Shown piece after piece: positions 10,087-38,001 of a stretch of DNA of 55,522 bases. This DNA is from a virus. The stretch is taken from positions 1 through 55,522 of the IMG/VR virus record IMGVR_UViG_3300010885_071562. One strand, 5' to 3'. The position numbers and the translations under genes were made by a program. Each line of letters starts with the position of its first letter. Positions within the stretch are counted from its first letter, which is position 1. Below the pieces are notes generated by a model. That model saw only the letters and a list, made by a program, of their open reading frames with translations, was not told the origin of the DNA and did not search any database.

Positions 10087-11772
10087 CTATGATGCTTGTT
10101 GGTTTGTTCGTAAATCATCAATGTACAGTGGGACACTTATTGATTGTGCCCTGTCCACGTCTATGATGACTAGAGAATACTGTCCTGACTTGCTCGTTGT
10201 GAGCAGTTTCATGTCAACTCCGGACCTGTTGACAATCTTTAGGTATTCAGGATCAAAGTAGACCTTGACTTCGTTCCTGTTTGAAACTTTTATCGCATCC
10301 ATCGTAAGACTTCCACGAATGAAGATGTTCGGGTAAGGTCGTGGTGCATTTGCTACCGAGACCATCTCAAGCTCCATGACATTCTTCATTTTATTAAACT
10401 TGATTCGAAGCTGCTCACAGTAGTTTGAAACGAATCCGTGAGCGTCTACGGACGCAAGAGTGTAGATGAATGATGAATTCTTCGTGAACTCTTTGTCGTG
10501 AAAGACGCAGAGAGGGAAGTCCACCTTCTTGATAAACCTCTCTGTTGGGCGATCAGGTCTCACAGGAAGGAGATTAGCGTCATTGAAATCAATCTCCTGC
10601 AGAAGTGAGAATGGCTCATTGACACTTGATCTGCGGAAGATCTGAAAGTACTTTACGTCTCTTGTCTTATCGACTGGAAAGTTCCAGGTCAATGCCGGTG
10701 ATTGAGTGTCATAGTCCCACCTGATCTGAAAGTCTTCAGGAGGTTCTGGTGGTGTTGTCTCATAACATGCAACCGTGTACCCTGAGGAGGGTGATGCAGC
10801 AACAAGAAGGGTAGCTATCACATTCTCACCGAGTTCCGTATACGTTGCTATCTCAATTGTATAGATCGCCTTGACAAAGTAACTGTATGAGGCACCGTAC
10901 TTCACACCTGTGTCAACCCAGGAGAACGAATCCCTTGAAAGAACGGCAATATTCCTCTGAGTTACATTGCCGTTCTTGTGAATCTCCTGTCGAACTATCA
11001 CATGTGCACGAAGCTCTGCCTTCTTTCCAACCTCACCAATGTCGCTCTCTCTTTCAAAGACACTTTCAACAAGAGAGTCAAAGTCATTCTGGCTGAAGAA
11101 GAGTCTTTCGGCATTTGCACGATCCTGCTCAGACTTTAGTTGCTTTAGTCTTGCATGCATTGCAAAGTTTGGACCTGGGATTCCTGCAAGTGAGGTGGCC
11201 CTGCCTGATACTGCGGCAAACCTTGACAGAACATTTGACTGTGAGGCAACTGATCTTGCGAAGATGTACTTTCCACCAGCTATTACCGTTCTTCCCTTTA
11301 TTTGCTTCGTTGTGTCAGGCTTCACAGATGCTGCATATTGAACTGCGGAAGGATTGACATGCCTTGAGACCATCTTCGATAGTTTCATCGAAATGTCAGT
11401 CGGATTTCCTGTTATACCTCGAAGTCTAGCTGAACGAAGGACAGAATCTCTTGCCCTTTTCTCTAGTGAGAAGTCCTGTACCGAGGATGACAGGCTTCTC
11501 GTATTCGCATAATCTTCCTGCGAATAGACGATTGAGAGGTTGTCCTCAACAAGTTTCCTCGAAAGCTCTGCATCGCAGGAGTAGGTTGTCGGCGCTGCAG
11601 GCTTAAATGAGAGGCTAATCTCACGAGGATGGTCTCGATCGGGGTCAGGAGTGTCGTTTGTTGTCTCATCAGGCTCAAATCGAAGGTACCTAAACTCAGC
11701 TATAGTTGCATCAGCATACGACAGTTCAAATGTCGCGAGAGGAAGTGAGGATAGAGGAACGAACACCGGCAT
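10087..11772 (-). CDS. Tail/baseplate structural protein with Fn3-like domain (561 aa)
   Basis: A virion-type protein. Residues about 340-470 look like a fibronectin type III or similar Ig-fold: PPEPPEDFQIRWDY, a strand pair with LTWNFP and YFQIFRRS, and SSFIYTLASVDAHGFVS. A second, weaker Fn3-like stretch precedes it (about 265-325: SFSWVDTGVKYGASYSYFVKAIY). A charged helical segment lies at about 205-265. The C-terminal 60 residues are beta-rich. The ATG overlaps the stop of the 1381-aa gene by one base. It probably binds to that large neighbour, but this is only suggested by order and coupling. Confidence 0.83.
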   Translation of the reverse strand: MPVFVPLSSLPLATFELSYADATIAEFRYLRFEPDETTNDTPDPDRDHPREISLSFKPAAPTTYSCDAELSRKLVEDNLSIVYSQEDYANTRSLSSSVQDFSLEKRARDSVLRSARLRGITGNPTDISMKLSKMVSRHVNPSAVQYAASVKPDTTKQIKGRTVIAGGKYIFARSVASQSNVLSRFAAVSGRATSLAGIPGPNFAMHARLKQLKSEQDRANAERLFFSQNDFDSLVESVFERESDIGEVGKKAELRAHVIVRQEIHKNGNVTQRNIAVLSRDSFSWVDTGVKYGASYSYFVKAIYTIEIATYTELGENVIATLLVAASPSSGYTVACYETTPPEPPEDFQIRWDYDTQSPALTWNFPVDKTRDVKYFQIFRRSSVNEPFSLLQEIDFNDANLLPVRPDRPTERFIKKVDFPLCVFHDKEFTKNSSFIYTLASVDAHGFVSNYCEQLRIKFNKMKNVMELEMVSVANAPRPYPNIFIRGSLTMDAIKVSNRNEVKVYFDPEYLKIVNRSGVDMKLLTTSKSGQYSLVIIDVDRAQSISVPLYIDDLRTNQQAS

Positions 11773-15918: not shown

Positions 15919-18285
15919 TCACTCTGACCTTTCGACTATGAAGTCTGGCTCGTTTCTCAGCGTGAAGATACTGTCTGAGGCTGATGTTGTCTCGCTAAAG
16001 TCAAGAAGTACAGGCGCAACTCGGTACTTTACGAGACCCACCCTGTCGAACATTTCGGAGTCAAAGAACACATTATCACCTTTTGTCCTCAGTGTGCAGC
16101 CAAGCAGACATTCGATCCCGTCTGCAGAAGCATAAACTCTATAGTGATCTATGAGATCATCATTCCCCGTGACTTGCCACTTCACAACGTTGAAACCTCC
16201 CCTATTCCTGGTGACTTCGACTGAAGAAATTGCAACTGACTGTTTTGTCCCAGTCACCTTCACAGATGATTCAACGCCTGTGTCGATAAGATTGAAAAGA
16301 GGCCTGAATGTTCCCTGGACTTCTCTATCTGATGGGGTTGCGTTATTCAGTCTGTCGGTCTTCCTAAACTTGTAAGAGTGAAATGGGTACTTCTTTCCAT
16401 CTCTTGAGATTGCGATTGCATACTGCGTGGTGATGAGTGCAGCCGCTGATTCAAGACCAAGTCTCACGTTATACTTGTAGCTTCCGTTCAACTTGAGAGG
16501 CTTCAGTGGCAACAAGGTCCCAATCTTTGCAGAGTCATCCACGAATTCATATTCCGTGAAGATTCCACACAATTCAACTTCACCTGTGTCGATATTCTCA
16601 CGAGTAATCTCAAAATAGAAGATCGGATCATGTTCATCAGGAGACTCAATGAAGTCGGTGATTGAACTCGTTGGAATTGAGTTGTTCTTCATCACCTGGA
16701 ATTGTGAGTTTGTTCTCTTTCCAGATTGAGTTGGAACCATCGTGAAAGATATGAGACGTGTTGTGTTACCTCCACTCTTCTCTATCTTGGAGGAAACATT
16801 CGAGATTCTAAGCTTGACACCCTCCTGCCTTTGAAGGAATGCGTATCTGTGCTTCGTTTCTGAAACCTCTAGTGAGCCAAACCTGTCGACAAGGCCGATA
16901 GCATACTCATAACTGTGCCCCAGTTCGCATGTGTCGTCAACAAATTGCGGAGATCTGTCTGTAGACCTGCTCTTTGAAGCATCTGTTGAGATGTGAGAGA
17001 AAGACTCTTCATTCCTTGTGATGTTCCTTCTAAGAAGAATGGACTCAGAGACGTCACTGGCAAGCTTTGTGACCTTGACTATGAGACTGTTTTCCTTTCG
17101 GGACACCTGGAACTTGACATCTTCAGAATCCTGCTTTGATCCGTTCCTAAGTGAGATGTCTACATCATTTGACTTGTTTCTGTAGATCCTGCTTGAGAAT
17201 GCGAAACCACCATAGAACGAGTTCGTTCCAACCCTTCTCTCAATTCTCGTTCCAGGAATACCACCATTGTGAAGATCAAGATCAATCTCAGTGTAGTAAG
17301 TGTCGTTCGCAGGCTCGCCTCTGAATCTTCTCACAAGTCCTCTTAGAGACTGTGGCGATTTCCTTGAATTGAAAGTCTGGGGAGACCTTGCTATCGTCTT
17401 CACATACTTGAGGTACCGGTTTATCGAACTTGCCGATGGCGTCGTTATCACATCTCGAAGTGATGGTGCTTGGAACACGTACCTTGAGAACATTTTGCCA
17501 TTCTGGAGATTGGCTCTAATGACAAGGTAGATTACGTCCTCTTTCTCGATATCAGCAGGAGGTATAATAGCATCGAATTTCACAGGAACAAATCTGCTTG
17601 TCGCTGTCACTCGCCTGTATCTTGACTGCGCACTTACTGTCTTAGTGGTGGCTCGCTTGAAAGTTTCGTACTCTTTGGTGAGAGTAAAGTCAGGAGTACC
17701 TCTGATCTCATCCTGCTGCTTCTCAGTTGCAATTGCTGATTGAGCTGATTTTATCGGGAACTTTCCAACGAATGAAGAAGGATCTATTGTCTTTGCGATA
17801 AGATCTAGGGTTGCAGATCTCAGCGATATCAGGGGTTTCACGAGAGGAGGAGATCCTACCACAACCTCGTCGATTCCAACAGTCTCGCTCCCTTCCTCGA
17901 TTGCCTCTACATAGTCAAATGTTCGCCCTATTCCTGAACGAAGGTCCCTGATGTCGGTGTTGTCTATGAGAGTCGTGATGTCTGCCTTGATATCGAAAAT
18001 CTTGAACGAGTTCTTGAAGTCAAAGTTTCCCTGTGTGTTGATTGTGTCCTGTGCTGCAGCAACTTCAAGTGAGTCAACGCTCTTACCAAACTCACTCTTG
18101 AACACAGGTTTGCTCCTGTAGCCTTCAACATCAACTATCGTGATCCCTTGTTCAAGAAGGGAGACAGCGTCGGCAATGAACATGAACTTTACAAGGACTC
18201 CGTCCTTAGTCAATTCAACGTGGTCATAAACATAATCGGGATCAGCGACAAATATGTCTGACTGCTGGACAGCCTTGAGTCTCAT
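15919..18285 (-). CDS. Tail/baseplate structural protein with Fn3-like domains (788 aa)
   Basis: A beta-rich structural protein. Near the C terminus (about 690-780), VTRNRGGFNVVKWQVTG, a DHYRVYASADG strand and GLVKYRVAPVLLD form a good fibronectin III-like pattern. A similar pattern precedes it (CELGHSYEYAIGLVDRFGS, about 455-475). N-terminal residues 1-60 mention no known family; the middle is rich in charged beta strands. The ATG overlaps the upstream stop by 4 bases (ATGA). With the 561-aa Fn3-like protein and the 1381-aa protein it forms a coupled trio, suggesting one sub-assembly of the baseplate periphery. Precise role unknown. Confidence 0.83.
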   Translation of the reverse strand: MRLKAVQQSDIFVADPDYVYDHVELTKDGVLVKFMFIADAVSLLEQGITIVDVEGYRSKPVFKSEFGKSVDSLEVAAAQDTINTQGNFDFKNSFKIFDIKADITTLIDNTDIRDLRSGIGRTFDYVEAIEEGSETVGIDEVVVGSPPLVKPLISLRSATLDLIAKTIDPSSFVGKFPIKSAQSAIATEKQQDEIRGTPDFTLTKEYETFKRATTKTVSAQSRYRRVTATSRFVPVKFDAIIPPADIEKEDVIYLVIRANLQNGKMFSRYVFQAPSLRDVITTPSASSINRYLKYVKTIARSPQTFNSRKSPQSLRGLVRRFRGEPANDTYYTEIDLDLHNGGIPGTRIERRVGTNSFYGGFAFSSRIYRNKSNDVDISLRNGSKQDSEDVKFQVSRKENSLIVKVTKLASDVSESILLRRNITRNEESFSHISTDASKSRSTDRSPQFVDDTCELGHSYEYAIGLVDRFGSLEVSETKHRYAFLQRQEGVKLRISNVSSKIEKSGGNTTRLISFTMVPTQSGKRTNSQFQVMKNNSIPTSSITDFIESPDEHDPIFYFEITRENIDTGEVELCGIFTEYEFVDDSAKIGTLLPLKPLKLNGSYKYNVRLGLESAAALITTQYAIAISRDGKKYPFHSYKFRKTDRLNNATPSDREVQGTFRPLFNLIDTGVESSVKVTGTKQSVAISSVEVTRNRGGFNVVKWQVTGNDDLIDHYRVYASADGIECLLGCTLRTKGDNVFFDSEMFDRVGLVKYRVAPVLLDFSETTSASDSIFTLRNEPDFIVERSE

Positions 18286-19160
18286 TCCTTCACCGTGATC
18301 GTGAACAGGTTCACGAATGTAGGAGCATCAAAACCGTCATTCATCAGTTTTCCTGCAAAGTAGATTCTTCTTGACTCAAGGCCAATGCTTGTTCTTCCGT
18401 AATCAATGATCTCAAGCTTTCCAAGGCTTCCACTATTCTCTTCATACACCTGCATCACGAGTGAGTGGTTCTCGGTCCTTGATGACAGGCTTATCGAAGC
18501 AGGAGTCGAGCCTGATAGTTCACTGAAGAATGAGCTTGGGTCTACAGACGTCTCCTCTCGAATGTCTGAGTAGGTTCCGAGAGGAGTTCCATCTGCCTGT
18601 AGAGGTGGAAGGAACTTGAAGTTCGGTCTTGTGGCAAGCCTGAAATCTGCCATCAAGGGCTCAACATCATCTATGGTTGCGGTAGACGGAACGTTTGAGA
18701 AAGATCCGCTATTCTCAATCTTGAACCTGTAGAATGATGGGTATGCAACTAGTCCAGGGTCTCCCAAGATAGGATCCTTTGTCCTTGCAATCCTTGCGTT
18801 TGACATTGCTTCCATGCTTCCTGATGTCACATTTGAGACGCCAGGAGTCACTGCCTGCCCATTAACGCTTTGTGCTCCCTTTCGAGGGTCTAGAGTCCCT
18901 GATGTCGTGAGATACGGTATCAGGAATGAGTCATCATCAGTTACCGGAATGATAGTGTCAAAAGGAGACTCATTGGATTCGAAGGACAGGTTGACATCTC
19001 TGTCCACAAAAATGCCTTGTGAGTCGCCTTCGTATGATGCGAGAGTGTCAGAAACACTGACATACCTCACGGCAAATGTCCCGTTTGAGATTCTACGACG
19101 CCCTTCACTCGTTATGCGAGCGTCGAGCATTCTTGACTTTGGGTCTAAGATTCCAGCCAC
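18282..19160 (-). CDS. Tail/baseplate structural protein (292 aa) with shared N-terminal module
   Basis: The N-terminal segment (MLDARITSEGRRRISNGTF, then AVRYVSVSD) corresponds to the module at the start of the 234-aa protein at 9361-10065. The rest is beta-rich, with Ser/Thr/Asp-rich loops and a final FVNLFTITVKE. The start is GTG at 19160; no ATG lies between it and the upstream stop. The closest purine-rich stretch is GAGGGG, 13 bases upstream, which is longer than ideal, so expression may be modest or coupled to the 1496-aa gene. Function beyond virion assembly is unknown. Confidence 0.8.
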   Translation of the reverse strand: MAGILDPKSRMLDARITSEGRRRISNGTFAVRYVSVSDTLASYEGDSQGIFVDRDVNLSFESNESPFDTIIPVTDDDSFLIPYLTTSGTLDPRKGAQSVNGQAVTPGVSNVTSGSMEAMSNARIARTKDPILGDPGLVAYPSFYRFKIENSGSFSNVPSTATIDDVEPLMADFRLATRPNFKFLPPLQADGTPLGTYSDIREETSVDPSSFFSELSGSTPASISLSSRTENHSLVMQVYEENSGSLGKLEIIDYGRTSIGLESRRIYFAGKLMNDGFDAPTFVNLFTITVKE

Positions 19161-33383: not shown

Positions 33384-33746
33384 TTAGCCGCCATTGATCT
33401 TCGAGAAGATGTCATCATCTGTCATGACAGTCTCAGATGGTCCACTGTCCTTGATGATCTCAGCAAGTTTCAGAAGCTGGTCATTTGCCTTGCTCATTCT
33501 CTCGAGGTACTTCACAAGAGTGCCACCTACAGTCACATGCTCGCCTGCTCCACCCTGCATTGTCGTGTACAGGTTGATGTAGAGGGCATAAGCATTCTCA
33601 CGATCTGTGACAGCATTCTGATAGATGTCCTTCCACAGCATCTTCCTCTTGTCGTCTACTGTCGCCATCGAGTCAAGGAGGTCACCGAAGTCCTTGATCT
33701 TTCGATTTGACTCTTCGTACTTCTTGAGAATGTCGTCTGCTTTCAT
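33384..33746 (-). CDS. Small helical protein (120 aa) coupled to sigma factor; unknown
   Basis: A mostly helical protein: KADDILKKYEESNRKIKD, LLDSMATVDDKRKMLWKDIY, NAVTDRENAYALYINLYTTM and KYLERMSKANDQLLKLAEII, with an acidic C-terminal tail (MTDDDIFSKI). The start overlaps the sigma-factor stop by 4 bases (ATGA). It is the size of T4 gp33 (112 aa), the co-activator that works with gp55, but I cannot see a specific gp33 motif. A terminase small subunit or another regulator are alternatives. The family appears, from memory, in other large phages with no assigned role. Confidence 0.78.
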   Translation of the reverse strand: MKADDILKKYEESNRKIKDFGDLLDSMATVDDKRKMLWKDIYQNAVTDRENAYALYINLYTTMQGGAGEHVTVGGTLVKYLERMSKANDQLLKLAEIIKDSGPSETVMTDDDIFSKINGG

Positions 33747-34477
33747 AGGATGTCAACTCCATCCTTAACTAGATCCTTGTAGTACCTGCGAATGGCGGAC
33801 ATTGCACCTGCGAGCTGTTTTGCGTTGAGATTGCTGAGGTCTCTGACATAGACGAATATTGCACGCTTGCTAAGCAGGTCAAGGTCATCAATCTTCAGGA
33901 AGACTGTGTGAATCGCTTCAGCACACGCAAGTTCATGCTCATTGTTGCACTTTGTCTTGATGATCTCCACGGCATCGAGGATCCTCTTCCTCTGGCCTGC
34001 ATTATAGAGCACATCATCAGGTGAATCAATGATCGAGTGATACGCAATTGCTCGCTTGTCCTTTGCACTGAGTGAGTCCAGATCATCAATGCTGACGTAG
34101 GTCGAGGTCATCTTCTGCCGCTTCTTAGCATGAATGATGAGCCAGTTCCTTGCAACAACATTGAAGTACGAGAATGCTTTTGTTCCCCTGCTCTCATCAA
34201 ACTTGTGCAGGTTCTCATAGAGGAAACAAACGCAATCCGATCTGAGATCCGGAACAGACTCGTTCGGTCCTGCGAACCCATAGATGTAGATGAGATTCTC
34301 AGCGAGCTTGTTGAAGGCTGGTAGTATCTCGCGGATGTAGATCTCATCCCTCTTCGAATTCTCAGTCTCAGCCTTGAAAGCTACGATGGAAGCCTGTACT
34401 TCCGGCCCAAAGTATAGGGTCTTGCTCGGTTCAGCAGGCGTTCCTGAACTCCTTCTGATTCTTTTCTTACCCTTCAT
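33743..34477 (-). CDS. RNA polymerase sigma factor, T4 gp55-like (late genes)
   Basis: Probably redirects host RNA polymerase to phage late promoters. Residues about 78-118 match sigma region 2: DLRSDCVCFLYENLHKFDE, then RGTKAFSYFNVVARNWLI, similar to T4 gp55 and its cyanophage relatives. The N-terminal tail is basic (KKRIRR). A helical C-terminal half (about 140-244) lacks an obvious region 4, in keeping with gp55. I prefer the ATG at 34477 over an upstream one at 34498: AGGAG lies about 7 bases ahead, and the shorter form matches the relatives. Placed just before the baseplate genes, as expected for a late-expression switch. Confidence 0.88.
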   Translation of the reverse strand: MKGKKRIRRSSGTPAEPSKTLYFGPEVQASIVAFKAETENSKRDEIYIREILPAFNKLAENLIYIYGFAGPNESVPDLRSDCVCFLYENLHKFDESRGTKAFSYFNVVARNWLIIHAKKRQKMTSTYVSIDDLDSLSAKDKRAIAYHSIIDSPDDVLYNAGQRKRILDAVEIIKTKCNNEHELACAEAIHTVFLKIDDLDLLSKRAIFVYVRDLSNLNAKQLAGAMSAIRRYYKDLVKDGVDIL

Positions 34478-34766
34478 TATCGTTCTCCTGATCTTCATCT
34501 ACCTTTGCTACGGTGTTCGCAACCAGGAGAATCGAATCTCTTGCGGCTTTTATGTCTTCGTGAACCTTTCTCACCTCTGGTGAGTCATAGAACAGGGGAA
34601 TCTCGAGTACCTTACTGATAGATGCGTACCTCTTGTCAAGGACGTCAAGACAATCCTCAAGGACATCCTCCAACTTGATCAGTTTCATTGAGAACTTGAT
34701 CAGGAAGAATGCTGAGACGCCAAGAAGGATCGTCTCAAGTGCAAGGAGCCCAAGAAGGATGCTCAT
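34467..34766 (-). CDS. Small membrane-anchored protein (99 aa), unknown
   Basis: A single hydrophobic segment (about residues 2-25: SILLGLLALETILLGVSAFF) is followed by a helical region (KLEDVLEDCLDVLDKRYASI), a short middle (IPLFYDSPEVRKVHEDI) and an acidic tail. The start overlaps the previous stop by 4 bases (ATGA), and its end overlaps the sigma-factor start by 11. It probably sits in the inner membrane with the C terminus in the cytoplasm. No holin-type repeat or antiholin motif is evident. Function is unknown; small one-helix proteins upstream of late regulators occur in related phages. Confidence 0.75.
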   Translation of the reverse strand: MSILLGLLALETILLGVSAFFLIKFSMKLIKLEDVLEDCLDVLDKRYASISKVLEIPLFYDSPEVRKVHEDIKAARDSILLVANTVAKVDEDQENDNEG

Positions 34767-35920
34767 ACAAAGTCCTTCAACGCTAGACTGTACTTATCGT
34801 TAATGCTCTCAGTGGAATACTCGCTCCTGATCTTCTTTCCAAGTTCCTTCGCCCATTCACGTGGAACCGACTTGCTTGAAGCAAACTTCTTCATCTTCTT
34901 CTTGGCATCTTCCTCACGAGGATGCGACCACGACATCCCATTCAGGAATATCTGGCCATCAACCTTCTGTGGGTGAACTTGCTGGAGGTCGTAGTCGACC
35001 TTAACGTACTTGCCCAAAGAGAGGAACTCATTGTGAGCTGACCATCCGGTCACAATCACAGGTAGGTCATTTGCGGCAGCTTCAAGTATCGGAAGACCGA
35101 AACCTTCTCCCCTTGTGAGTGAGATCAGTGTGTCAACCTTCGGTGACCTGTAGAGCCTGCCAAGCTCGCTTGGAGTCATCTCACCTGTGAGGATGTGAAC
35201 CTTCGGGAATTGTCCTGGCCTCACCTCAGAGATTAGCTTCTTGAAGATGTCAACTGTCTGAGAGCGCAAGAAGCATGACTGAGTTCCGAGATTTGTCTTG
35301 ATGATCAGGCTTACGTTTCTATCATCCTTGAAAGTCTCACAGAACCACTTCACAGTGAAGAAGATGTTCTTTCTGTCGAGGTCAGGAGTGTTTCCTGTTA
35401 CCTGACCAACAAGCAGGAAGTTTGTCTGTGTCGTTACCTCTGGAAGATCAAGGCCTGGTTCGTCACTCACCATGAGGGGATTGAATGACTCAGGAACAAC
35501 GAGGCACGGGACCTGTAGGTTCCCCGAGTTTGTGAGAGCCTTCTTTGCAAATTCTGACGGGACTATGACACAGCTCATCCTGTTACAACATTCAACCCAA
35601 GCAGGATTGCACCTGTCAGTCTCAACAACAGCTGAGATTCCTACGTTCACCTTTCCAAGGGCAGGATTCCATTCATTTGGAAGCTGGATCTGCAGCGTGA
35701 GGTCTGCTTCGAATTCCTGAGAGTTTGACCTCTGCATGATCTCACCTATGAGGCCTCCCTCATTGTCCGGATTGACATGCCAGCTTGTCATACCCCACGG
35801 TGTGATCTCACACCTGACATCAAAGTTAGGATTCGATATCGCCCACTTGAATACTTGCCTCGAGTGCTCACCATATCCTGATATTGAGAGGAGGGGTCCT
35901 CTAACGATTACTTTCTTCAT
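34763..35920 (-). CDS. Glycosyltransferase, GT4-like (GT-B fold)
   Basis: A nucleotide-sugar glycosyltransferase. The C-terminal Rossmann half carries the family-4 signature TRGEGFGLPILEAAANDLP and VIVTGWSAHNEF, with the two glutamates expected for donor binding; FLLVGQVTGN starts this half. The N-terminal half (IVRGPLLSISGYGEH) has a Gly-rich acceptor loop. I place the start at ATG 35920, which overlaps the previous stop by 4 bases and begins MKKVIVRG; an upstream ATG at 35956 would add 12 residues inside the previous gene. It forms a pair with the next-upstream GT4. Donor and acceptor cannot be told from sequence. At 385 aa it is of usual length. Confidence 0.9.
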   Translation of the reverse strand: MKKVIVRGPLLSISGYGEHSRQVFKWAISNPNFDVRCEITPWGMTSWHVNPDNEGGLIGEIMQRSNSQEFEADLTLQIQLPNEWNPALGKVNVGISAVVETDRCNPAWVECCNRMSCVIVPSEFAKKALTNSGNLQVPCLVVPESFNPLMVSDEPGLDLPEVTTQTNFLLVGQVTGNTPDLDRKNIFFTVKWFCETFKDDRNVSLIIKTNLGTQSCFLRSQTVDIFKKLISEVRPGQFPKVHILTGEMTPSELGRLYRSPKVDTLISLTRGEGFGLPILEAAANDLPVIVTGWSAHNEFLSLGKYVKVDYDLQQVHPQKVDGQIFLNGMSWSHPREEDAKKKMKKFASSKSVPREWAKELGKKIRSEYSTESINDKYSLALKDFV

Positions 35921-37158
35921 AGGCTTGTCACACTCCAGCGATTCTTCTTGCGCCAATTCTTGATAGTCTCATTGAGTGTTCTGTCCCAGTCGTCTATCAT
36001 CTTCTGGTGATTGAATTCTGACATGACGTAGTTCCTTGCTCGGAGACCTACCTTCTTCCTCTCTTCAGGTCCCATCTCATAGAGCTTGAAGATTCCGTTT
36101 CCTGCAGTCTCAGCGCTTACATAGTCTTCAAAGATGTACGGGACCATCTGGCTTCCAACCATCGTCTTGAGCTCAACCGGCAGAGCAACGCCGTTCTCAT
36201 TGCCATTCCTGTGGTCGACCACTTGACGAGTCAGGCCTCCTGTCTTCACGGCGACGATTGGCTTTGCACATTGCATTGCCTCAAGTGTCGAGAGTCCGAA
36301 ACCTTCAGCATGAGAGATATTGATGCAAAAGTCGGAAATGTTGTGAAGGATGTTCATCTTCTCAAAGTCAATCCGATCATTTGAGAAGATGACGTTCTCA
36401 TCAACACCAAGCATCTTCACAACCTCTACGAGGTTTGGACCTTCCTGATCGAGTGGATCGGTGTGCATGAGGAGGGTCGCCTTCTTGTGACCATGCTTCT
36501 CCTGCAGCTTGTCAAGGAATATCTTCCATGACCAGATGACATCGGATGGCCTCTTTCGCCTTGCATTCCTGTTCACCCAGAATCCTACAAAGTGATCTGC
36601 CCTTGCAGGTCCAAGAAGCTGCCTCTTATGCATTGAAGCCTGCTGCTCACTAAGAGGATAGAATACCTGCGGTGGAAGGGTGTGTGGAATGAAGTTGGTC
36701 TTTTCTGGGAACATTCCCTTGACCATCTCATATGTCATGAATGAGTGACAATTGATGAGATCAGTCGCATCATACATTGCACGGTTGAACTCTGGGGCCG
36801 GATGATTGTCCCAGACATGCCACCACACGATTGGGCACACCTGATGGATCTCATCCTCCATCTCAAAGAGCCAGATAAAGAATCTTGGATCAGTGAAAAT
36901 GAGAATGAGATCCGGCTTTTCAGTGGCCAGAGTCATCCTCAGGAGGTTCCTGTCTCCGAATCCATCTATCGGTTTGATGATGAAATCAGGATTGACCATG
37001 ATGGTCTCATAGCTGGAATGCTTCATGGCAGCTCCAAACTGCCTGAACGACCAGGTTCCCTTTTCTAGTAGTCCGTTTATGAGATGCCTTGTCTGCGTTC
37101 CGACTCCACTTGTCGAAAGCGCATGGTCACTCAGAACTAGAACTTTGTGCTTCTTCAA
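35917..37158 (-). CDS. Glycosyltransferase, GT4-like (GT-B fold)
   Basis: A retaining-type glycosyltransferase. It begins with a beta-strand and acceptor loop (KVLVLSDHALSTSGVGTQT), and the C-terminal half holds SHAEGFGLSTLEAMQCAKP and IVAVKTGGLTRQV, the usual donor-site glutamate motif. The start is TTG at 37158; no ATG or GTG lies in frame near the first strand. GGAG sits 6 bases before it but is buried, together with the first two bases of the TTG, in a 12-bp perfect hairpin (see separate entry), so translation may be controlled. Its end overlaps the next glycosyltransferase by 4 bases. Two tandem GT4 genes suggest consecutive steps on one glycan. Confidence 0.9.
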   Translation of the reverse strand: MKKHKVLVLSDHALSTSGVGTQTRHLINGLLEKGTWSFRQFGAAMKHSSYETIMVNPDFIIKPIDGFGDRNLLRMTLATEKPDLILIFTDPRFFIWLFEMEDEIHQVCPIVWWHVWDNHPAPEFNRAMYDATDLINCHSFMTYEMVKGMFPEKTNFIPHTLPPQVFYPLSEQQASMHKRQLLGPARADHFVGFWVNRNARRKRPSDVIWSWKIFLDKLQEKHGHKKATLLMHTDPLDQEGPNLVEVVKMLGVDENVIFSNDRIDFEKMNILHNISDFCINISHAEGFGLSTLEAMQCAKPIVAVKTGGLTRQVVDHRNGNENGVALPVELKTMVGSQMVPYIFEDYVSAETAGNGIFKLYEMGPEERKKVGLRARNYVMSEFNHQKMIDDWDRTLNETIKNWRKKNRWSVTSL

Positions 37159-37198
37159 AGTTTGCTCCCTGCCGTATATTCAGCTCGGAGCAAACTTT
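37157..37198 (-). promoter_or_regulatory. Perfect 12-bp hairpin sequestering SD and TTG start of the 37158 glycosyltransferase
   Basis: On the minus strand AAAGTTTGCTCC (37198-37187) and GGAGCAAACTTT (37168-37157) are exact complements with an 18-base loop between them. The right arm contains the only GGAG ribosome site and the first two bases of the TTG start codon. There is no run of T after the stem, so it does not look like a terminator. The simplest reading is a translational operator or temperature/ligand-sensitive switch; nothing here shows which. Confidence 0.72.
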
Positions 37199-37206
37199 AG
37201 TAAAAA

Positions 37207-38001
37207 CTATCGAGTACAGTGGCCACTCTTTGCGAAGTCACACCATTCACATGCATACTTGTTCTTCAGGAACTTACCGCGACGGACTCCGTTGACCATG
37301 TCCTTGACCAACTTCTCACCCTTCTCCATGGGCTTTGGTCCTACTGAGATGTCGTAGCGAACAATTGTTGACCCAGGCTTTGCACCCTTCTTCAGGACAA
37401 CGAAAGCGCATCCAACATCACGACTCTGAAGTTCGAGCTTACGAAGCAGGTAGCTCTTGTAGAGCCATAGCTGGGCAAGGACCAGTTCGTTCTCTAGCTT
37501 GTCCCTACGCCATCCACCAGCAGGACCCGTCTTCCAGTCCAGGATCCAGACCTTCCACTTTGTCTTCTCCTCATTGAGGGGAACACGAACGATGGAGTCC
37601 ACGAATCCCTTGAACTTGATGGTCTCCTCTTCAGGAATGTCCTCATAGAGGGGAAGCTCGGCGCCGAGTAGTTCCCAACCTGGATGTTCCGCCTCAAGCC
37701 AACCTGGAAAGTCGGTGAGGATGTTGACAGCCCACTTGGACCACTTCTCAACATCAGGACGATTCCTCGCTGCCCAGTCATCCTCAATGAGCTTGACAAC
37801 AGCGGGAATGTCCATCGTGCGTGTCTTGAGATAGTTCTCAACTCCGGAGTGGACATGCTTTCCGAAGTCGGCATGGATCCAGTCCTGTTCAATGACTACC
37901 TTGTCAATGTATGAGAGCTTGTGCTTGTAACCACATGCATGCCATGTGCTGACTTCTGAGAATGAGACATGCGGCTTACCAGTTGGAAAGTCAGTTGACA
38001 T
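37207..38001 (-). CDS. PD-(D/E)XK nuclease, Cas4/RecB-like with Fe-S cysteines
   Basis: A DNA exonuclease-type fold of the PDDEXK_1 group. Active-site strands are seen as FKGFVDSI (the aspartate) and WILDWKTG (D and K), with a downstream Q in LVLAQLWLYKSY. Four cysteines fit a 4Fe-4S cluster as in Cas4 and AddB: C23 in the first helix and C251, C254, C262 in CEWCDFAKSGHC at the very end. At 264 aa it is a stand-alone nuclease with no helicase attached. The ATG is preceded by AGAGGA. Within the glycan island it is the only DNA-acting gene. It may work with the Mre11-Rad50 fusion in recombination or host DNA breakdown; not shown. Confidence 0.9.
   Translation of the reverse strand: MSTDFPTGKPHVSFSEVSTWHACGYKHKLSYIDKVVIEQDWIHADFGKHVHSGVENYLKTRTMDIPAVVKLIEDDWAARNRPDVEKWSKWAVNILTDFPGWLEAEHPGWELLGAELPLYEDIPEEETIKFKGFVDSIVRVPLNEEKTKWKVWILDWKTGPAGGWRRDKLENELVLAQLWLYKSYLLRKLELQSRDVGCAFVVLKKGAKPGSTIVRYDISVGPKPMEKGEKLVKDMVNGVRRGKFLKNKYACEWCDFAKSGHCTR

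Follow-up and report, generated by a model that had tools for sequence, protein, structure and literature searches.

What does a perfect hairpin achieve when it buries the ribosome-binding site and the start codon of a phage glycosyltransferase (GT) gene, and which messages would be affected by it? This question is raised by a 55.5-kb fragment of an uncultured T4-related virus (IMG/VR record IMGVR_UViG_3300010885_071562, positions 1 to 55,522), the whole of which is called the window below. The GT gene lies on the minus strand between an exonuclease-type gene, which ends 48 nt 5' of the GT start, and a series of overlapping downstream genes, namely a second GT gene, a 99-aa reading frame and a weak match to the late sigma factor gp55, beyond which come baseplate genes that are also on the minus strand (Table 1). 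We found 73 relatives of the GT, and a nuclease-type open reading frame precedes the GT gene in those that were examined. Among cultured viruses, Immutovirus and Microcystis phage Mel-JY01 come closest both in the GT and in a baseplate protein; for the GT, Rhodothermus phage RM378 is a near relative too, and the Far-T4 group forms the tail of this list. The GT proteins of the Far-T4 phages (PMC4360716), RM378, Immutovirus and Mel-JY01 are about 27-32% identical to that of the window. Immutovirus and Mel-JY01 share with the window a PD-(D/E)XK nuclease gene shortly 5' of the GT gene, and a comparable masking hairpin was not found at the GT starts of these cultured relatives.

Table 1. Position of the hairpin, of the predicted promoter elements and of the surrounding genes in the window.
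Feature	Position	Strand	Sequence	Basis or remark
Hairpin left arm	37198-37187	minus	AAAGTTTGCTCC	pairs exactly with 37168-37157
Hairpin loop, 18 nt	between 37187 and 37168	minus	GAGCTGAATATACGGCAG	
Hairpin right arm	37168-37157	minus	GGAGCAAACTTT	carries the SD, GGAG (37168-37165)
Predicted -35	37204-37199	minus	TTTACT	motif discovery, fixed spacing to TAnnnT
Predicted promoter spacer, 17 nt	37198-37182	minus	AAAGTTTGCTCCGAGCT	contains the left arm
Predicted -10	37181-37176	minus	GAATAT	within the loop; TAnnnT would have T, not G, at the first position
Predicted transcription start	37171-37167, about 37169	minus		from the usual -10 to +1 spacing
Degenerate late-core match	37204..37211	minus	GATAGTTT	resembles the clade late core GATANTTA; across the exonuclease stop
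PD-(D/E)XK nuclease (exonuclease family)	37207..38001	minus		Pfam PF12705, E 2.6e-21; PHROG exonuclease families
Exonuclease stop	37209-37207	minus	TAG	
GT gene, 413 aa	35917..37158	minus	TTG start	Pfam PF13692/PF00534, E about 1e-11; PHROG 2170
Second glycosyltransferase	34763-35956	minus		downstream, overlapping genes
99-aa open reading frame	34467-34766	minus		downstream, overlapping genes
Late-sigma (gp55-like) match, weak	33743-34498	minus		PHROG 234, E 1.2e-4; downstream, overlapping genes

The original prediction, made from the sequence of the window, had described two perfectly complementary 12-bp arms, the right one holding GGAG and, six bases further on, the first two bases of a TTG start. 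Both the pairing and the coordinates are exact, the last two bases of the right arm being the first two of the TTG codon (37158-37156). The comparison with shuffled sequence that it had proposed came out in its favour, the folding energy being -28.8 kcal/mol as opposed to -13.2 +/- 2.6 kcal/mol in dinucleotide shuffles (RNAfold; z -6.0, with 0 of 200 shuffles equally stable). In the predicted fold the helix is extended by a U-G pair, by an inner GCUG/CGGC stem and by an outer GUUUUU/AAGAAGC stem, in which the GUUUUU that lies 3' of the exonuclease stop pairs with GT codons 2-4. Masking of the SD and of the start codon is well supported by these folding predictions. An intrinsic terminator, which had been discounted for want of a T-run, is indeed rejected, as the right arm is followed by GAAGAAGCAC and not by a U-tract, and a search of the window with Rfam 15 returned no match above the gathering threshold.

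How exceptional is this structure? The window contains three perfect inverted repeats of at least 12 bp with a loop of at most 60 nt, and only the one at the GT gene overlaps an annotated gene start. Perfect inverted repeats are seen within coding regions at 36354-36392 in the GT gene itself (13 bp, loop of 13, and thus longer than the hairpin at the start) and at 10939-10977 (12 bp, loop of 15). The GT start is the most structured of the 44 minus-strand starts in the window (z -6.8, mean -0.26) and, in a ranking of 1425 starts from the window together with 16 relatives, comes third. The claim that no other inspected start carries such a structure is nearly right, the second most structured start of the window (z -3.85) being that at 19160 (minus strand, gene 18282-19160). 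At 19160 the SD region is mostly paired, and the sequence CTATTTA stands directly 5' of the annotated GTG, which may indicate that the true start lies further in.

The assignment of the start itself also held. TTG is a credible GT start because the SD is placed six bases 5' of it, an in-frame TGA immediately precedes it, and in relatives this position is occupied by ATG, GTG or TTG. An N-terminal extension of the GT through the hairpin was considered for four relatives (L060 and L165-L167), where the frames are open, and was rejected since by eye no SD-bearing start codon precedes these frames.

The original prediction had overlooked that the hairpin overlaps a promoter-like pair of elements, TTTACT-17-GAATAT. 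Motif discovery in 54 non-redundant GT leaders, performed without consulting the hairpin, revealed TTTAC in about 50 of them, at about -35 to -60 (score 50.7, shuffled maximum 24.7). The conserved signature has two parts, TT(T/A)AC and, 16-17 nt later, TAnnnT: counted from the last base of the hexamer, the distance to the second element is 16 nt in 19 leaders and 17 nt in 9, with other distances at background. In total, 28 of the 54 leaders carry this pair of elements, compared with a mean of 3.2 and a maximum of 9 after shuffling. A locked spacing between -35 and -10 elements is the mark of a bacterial promoter. Within the clade of the window, (T/G)AnnnT is found at 16-17 nt in nine of ten leaders (shuffled mean 0.9, maximum 4 of 10). 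Several of the tests were devised stepwise as the pattern emerged, and the spacing result is strong enough to withstand this.

In the window, TTTACT-17-GAATAT is the only match of its kind that is well placed before an annotated minus-strand start. Its -10 is weak, GAATAT lacking the usual first T of the TAnnnT seen in most relatives. From the coordinates of the three elements it follows that the left arm of the hairpin lies in the promoter spacer and the -10 in the loop. Outside GT genes the signature is only modestly enriched (TTTAC 9 times, 2.3 expected, with similar results for TTAAC, TGAAC and TAAAC), and for this reason we do not claim a genome-wide early class. A scan with the sigma70 consensus gave nothing above shuffles, and a MotA box in TTTGCTCC was discarded by eye, its spacing to the -10 being unsuitable. 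Note also that in four GT leaders (L026, L048, L049 and L067) the called -10 ends very near the annotated start, and there the gene's own promoter would yield an RNA with almost no leader, unless the true start is further downstream.

The relation between spacer and ribosome site was evaluated by shuffling the spacer and comparing how much it costs read-through RNA to open its ribosome site, using the 44 leaders with a called promoter. In 15 of these the opening cost exceeds that of the spacer shuffles with z above 1.5, and in none does z fall below -1.5 (Wilcoxon p 0.0012). For the window the cost is 18.3 kcal/mol, compared with 9.2 +/- 1.3 kcal/mol when the spacer is shuffled (z 6.9); shuffling lowers it from 23.6 to 5.6 kcal/mol in L165 and from 22.1 to 7.8 kcal/mol in L166. 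When the own-promoter RNA is modelled as starting 7 nt after the -10, the predicted opening cost drops, relative to read-through RNA, from 19.8 to 6.6 kcal/mol in the window, from 27.3 to 1.6 in L165 and from 25.1 to 6.1 in L166, the residual 6.6 kcal/mol of the short RNA of the window being due, according to the prediction, to slight pairing of the start with downstream codons. On sequence grounds, the predicted promoter spacer doubles as a hairpin arm.

Masking recurs among relatives with different sequences. The GT leaders (39 clusters) have a mean z of -1.36 as compared with -0.76 at gap-matched gene starts (p 5e-4; p 1e-3 without the cluster of the window), values to be read with the reservation that clustering at about 72% identity corrects only partially for kinship and that relatives are non-independent samples. 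The closest relatives came from a search with the nuclease, and a DNA search with the leader sequence for closer ones yielded L002 only. L002, L003, L060 and L162-L167 also have an SD-masking hairpin, with arms unlike those of the window, for instance ATTGCGCCTCAC/GTGAGGCGCAAT in L165, CTGCCTCGCGTA/TACGCGAGGCAG in L166 and ATCCCCGC/GCGGGGAT in L163. Across L060, L165, L166 and L167, 91.7% of cells pair and 3 of 12 pairs have changed on both sides, values well above those of slid controls; with four sequences, such apparent covariation is supportive but not proof. A check for compensatory changes, likewise proposed at the outset, gave a divided answer. In L002 the SD is still masked, with one inner pair changed on both sides and one turned into U-G, but pairing has been lost at two outer positions and one inner one. 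In L171, which has a near-identical exonuclease, masking is essentially gone, and little of it is left in L170; neither leader has significant structure, and masking structure is generally missing in more distant relatives.

The reading that we favour, and consider probable, is that the GT hairpin acts as a switch, or read-through silencer, sensing where a message began by means of an embedded early-type promoter. The left arm would be the promoter spacer, the loop would hold the -10, and the right arm would provide the GT SD and start. RNA arriving from upstream, by read-through from the exonuclease gene or, in some relatives, from a late promoter, would contain both arms and fold, so that ribosomes would not load on GT; the genes beyond GT could still be read from this masked RNA. 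RNA from the embedded promoter would begin without the left arm, leaving the ribosome site exposed and the message translatable. The early-like -35 suggests that GT would be expressed from its own, probably prereplicative, promoter and be silent on read-through or late RNA. Sequence analysis shows the predicted structure and its masking of the ribosome site, the recurrence in relatives, the promoter signature with its fixed spacing and the relation between arm and spacer; the firing of the promoter, its timing and start position, and the existence of read-through RNA are inferred.

Among the alternatives, translational coupling supposes that GT is silent unless ribosomes finishing the exonuclease open the base of the hairpin. 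The outer stem begins at the exonuclease stop, close to the GT start, and a ribosome terminating there would open the AU-rich outer pairs; judging from its footprint size, however, a ribosome stalled at this codon would fall short of the GC-rich core. Moreover, the gap between stop and start varies in relatives from 23 to about 90 nt, and coupling leaves the fixed-spacing promoter signature unexplained, so we regard it as unlikely.

Somewhat less likely still is a translational operator, at which GT translation would be tuned by a ligand or by an RNA-binding phage protein comparable to T4 gp43, gp32 or RegA. The position of the hairpin at a start codon fits such an operator, as does the loop core GAATATA common to the window, L002 and L164. 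However, arms and loops differ widely among relatives, the shared part of the loop is a -10-like element at promoter spacing, beyond which we found no conserved arm or loop that a repressor could recognise across the family, and no Rfam family was matched. The original prediction was right to point to T4 regulatory hairpins, but the fitting precedents are e, soc, 49 and I-TevI, whose hairpins act in cis, rather than operators bound by repressor proteins. The locus can be explained without a thermometer or a repressor that binds a specific RNA sequence, nothing found here points positively to either, and the readings of the hairpin as fixed-loop repressor site, thermometer or terminator have become less likely. 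The remaining possibilities, namely a DNA operator palindrome, an RNA processing site, an RNA thermometer or a chance hairpin, appear together very unlikely: inverted repeats can bind dimeric regulators and hairpins at single genes can arise by chance, but arm variation among relatives speaks against a sequence-specific DNA binder, the U-tract is missing, and z -6.0 together with recurrence in relatives argues against chance.

Whether late transcription could instead relieve the hairpin depends on what a late promoter looks like in these viruses. In 17 contigs (including L075-L155), a late-promoter-like core, ATANNTA, is strongly enriched 17-42 nt before starts; ATANTTA is found 109 times in the interval from -42 to -17, where 4.7 are expected, ATANATA shows an enrichment of about 10-fold, and the A at the end matters. 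This core is likely to be a gp55-type late promoter related to the T4 sequence TATAAATA in a large uncultured T4-related clade. The T4 sequence itself was rejected as the late promoter of the clade, being absent from the window; in the group of L004 it doubles as the last codons of the exonuclease (Tyr-Lys-stop), and its status there is ambiguous. When the late motif was fitted by EM without constraints, the fit wandered off into generic AT-rich sequence and was set aside.

Candidate late promoters in the window, all on the minus strand, are GATACTTA (873-866), CATAGTTA (10091-10084), GATAGATA (31643-31636) and GATAAGTA (34798-34791), each placed 23-32 nt 5' of a possible start (848, 10065, 31620 and 34766, respectively). 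Elsewhere in the clade, SD-masking hairpins with ATAGTTA, ATACTTA and ATAGTTA in or beside the loop, like that of T4 gene e, are seen at L105:18033, L103:14536 and L079:8023, whose products are an acidic 234-aa protein, a 391-aa protein and a 393-aa lipoprotein-like protein, respectively; L098 carries a homologue of the last gene behind a similar leader. At the starts L128:4335 (643-aa glycosyltransferase-like protein) and L132:17765 (608-aa protein) the late motif lies between the arms of an SD-masking hairpin.

The hairpin of the window holds no ATANNTA. The loop sequence GAATATA was rejected as a late promoter, as it neither matches ATANNTA nor is enriched near starts, and for the degenerate match GATAGTTT the tolerance table suggests that its A-to-T change at the last position is badly tolerated. 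A consensus ATACTTA or ATAATTA is found at the nuclease stop, 5' of the hairpin, in L060, L003, L165, L166 and L167, and late RNA in these five would therefore carry both arms. Masking spacers are present in 5 of 5 non-redundant leaders with a consensus late promoter directly upstream of the spacer and in 10 of 39 others (Fisher p 0.003), a comparison that was picked after inspection, in which three of the five leaders represent one lineage, and which may not survive the stepwise choice of tests. Across all genes, late promoters are not tied to masking hairpins relative to gap-matched starts (Fisher p 0.2-0.4). A switch of the T4 gene e type, in which late transcripts would begin at a gp55 promoter within the hairpin, is the least probable explanation, for although the clade has a late core, the L004 group has TATAAATA at -32 with a late RNA predicted to be open, and some other genes have late promoters within or beside masking hairpins, the core is missing from the hairpin of the window, the consensus site 5' of the hairpin in five relatives would keep the hairpin on late RNA, and no general association is seen.

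If the proposed read-through silencer with its embedded early-type promoter is right, a promoter spacer, normally deemed free sequence, acts as an antisense arm that reports the origin of the message. This would give a phage a compact means of insulating one gene within a long operon, and show that switches can persist while their arm sequences drift. Complementarity of a promoter spacer to the ribosome site downstream would then offer a signature by which further cases could be sought in other phages and in bacteria.

T4-type early promoters serve the host polymerase immediately after infection and have, besides the -35, a TAnnnT -10 with an extended -10 and an UP element. The predicted promoter can be compared with T4 early promoters, whose -35 is GTTTAC and in which, in some T4-like phages, the T at -12 is not rigid (PMC1524935). 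GT leaders share with them the TTTAC -35 and the spacing of 16-17 nt after the hexamer, and most relatives also have a TAnnnT -10. They differ in that the base before TTTAC is T and not G in the window, that the -10 is GAnnnT in most of its clade, and that their spacer can pair with the ribosome site further down. As for hairpins, those at the ribosome sites of Aeromonas phage Aeh1 mobE and T4 segB, as far as the citing text in PMC3014915 describes them, lower translation; they resemble the present one in their position at the ribosome site of a phage gene, but belong to homing endonuclease genes and not to a GT gene.

The closest parallel is provided by T4 e, soc, 49 and I-TevI, where a helix hides the SD and/or start codon in long read-through RNA (PMC3014915). 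For gene e, where this logic is established, messages initiated at promoters close to the hairpin are without the 5' arm and can be translated, and for gene e and I-TevI the relieving promoter is a gp55 late promoter, the read-through RNA being early or middle (PMC3014915). The helix of the window is likewise predicted to sequester the SD and start in read-through RNA, and its predicted promoter is placed, in a manner conserved among relatives, so that its RNA would miss the 5' arm. By analogy, the switch would follow the logic of these T4 genes with an early-type instead of a late promoter. Differently from e and I-TevI, the embedded promoter is early-like and not of the TATAAATA type, and it is conserved while the arms drift. 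It is possible, although we hold it doubtful, that the locus is a mirror of the T4 lysozyme switch, GT being made early from its own RNA and turned off on late or read-through RNA bound for later genes; the timing would be a mirror image because the relieving promoter looks early here and is late for T4 gene e.
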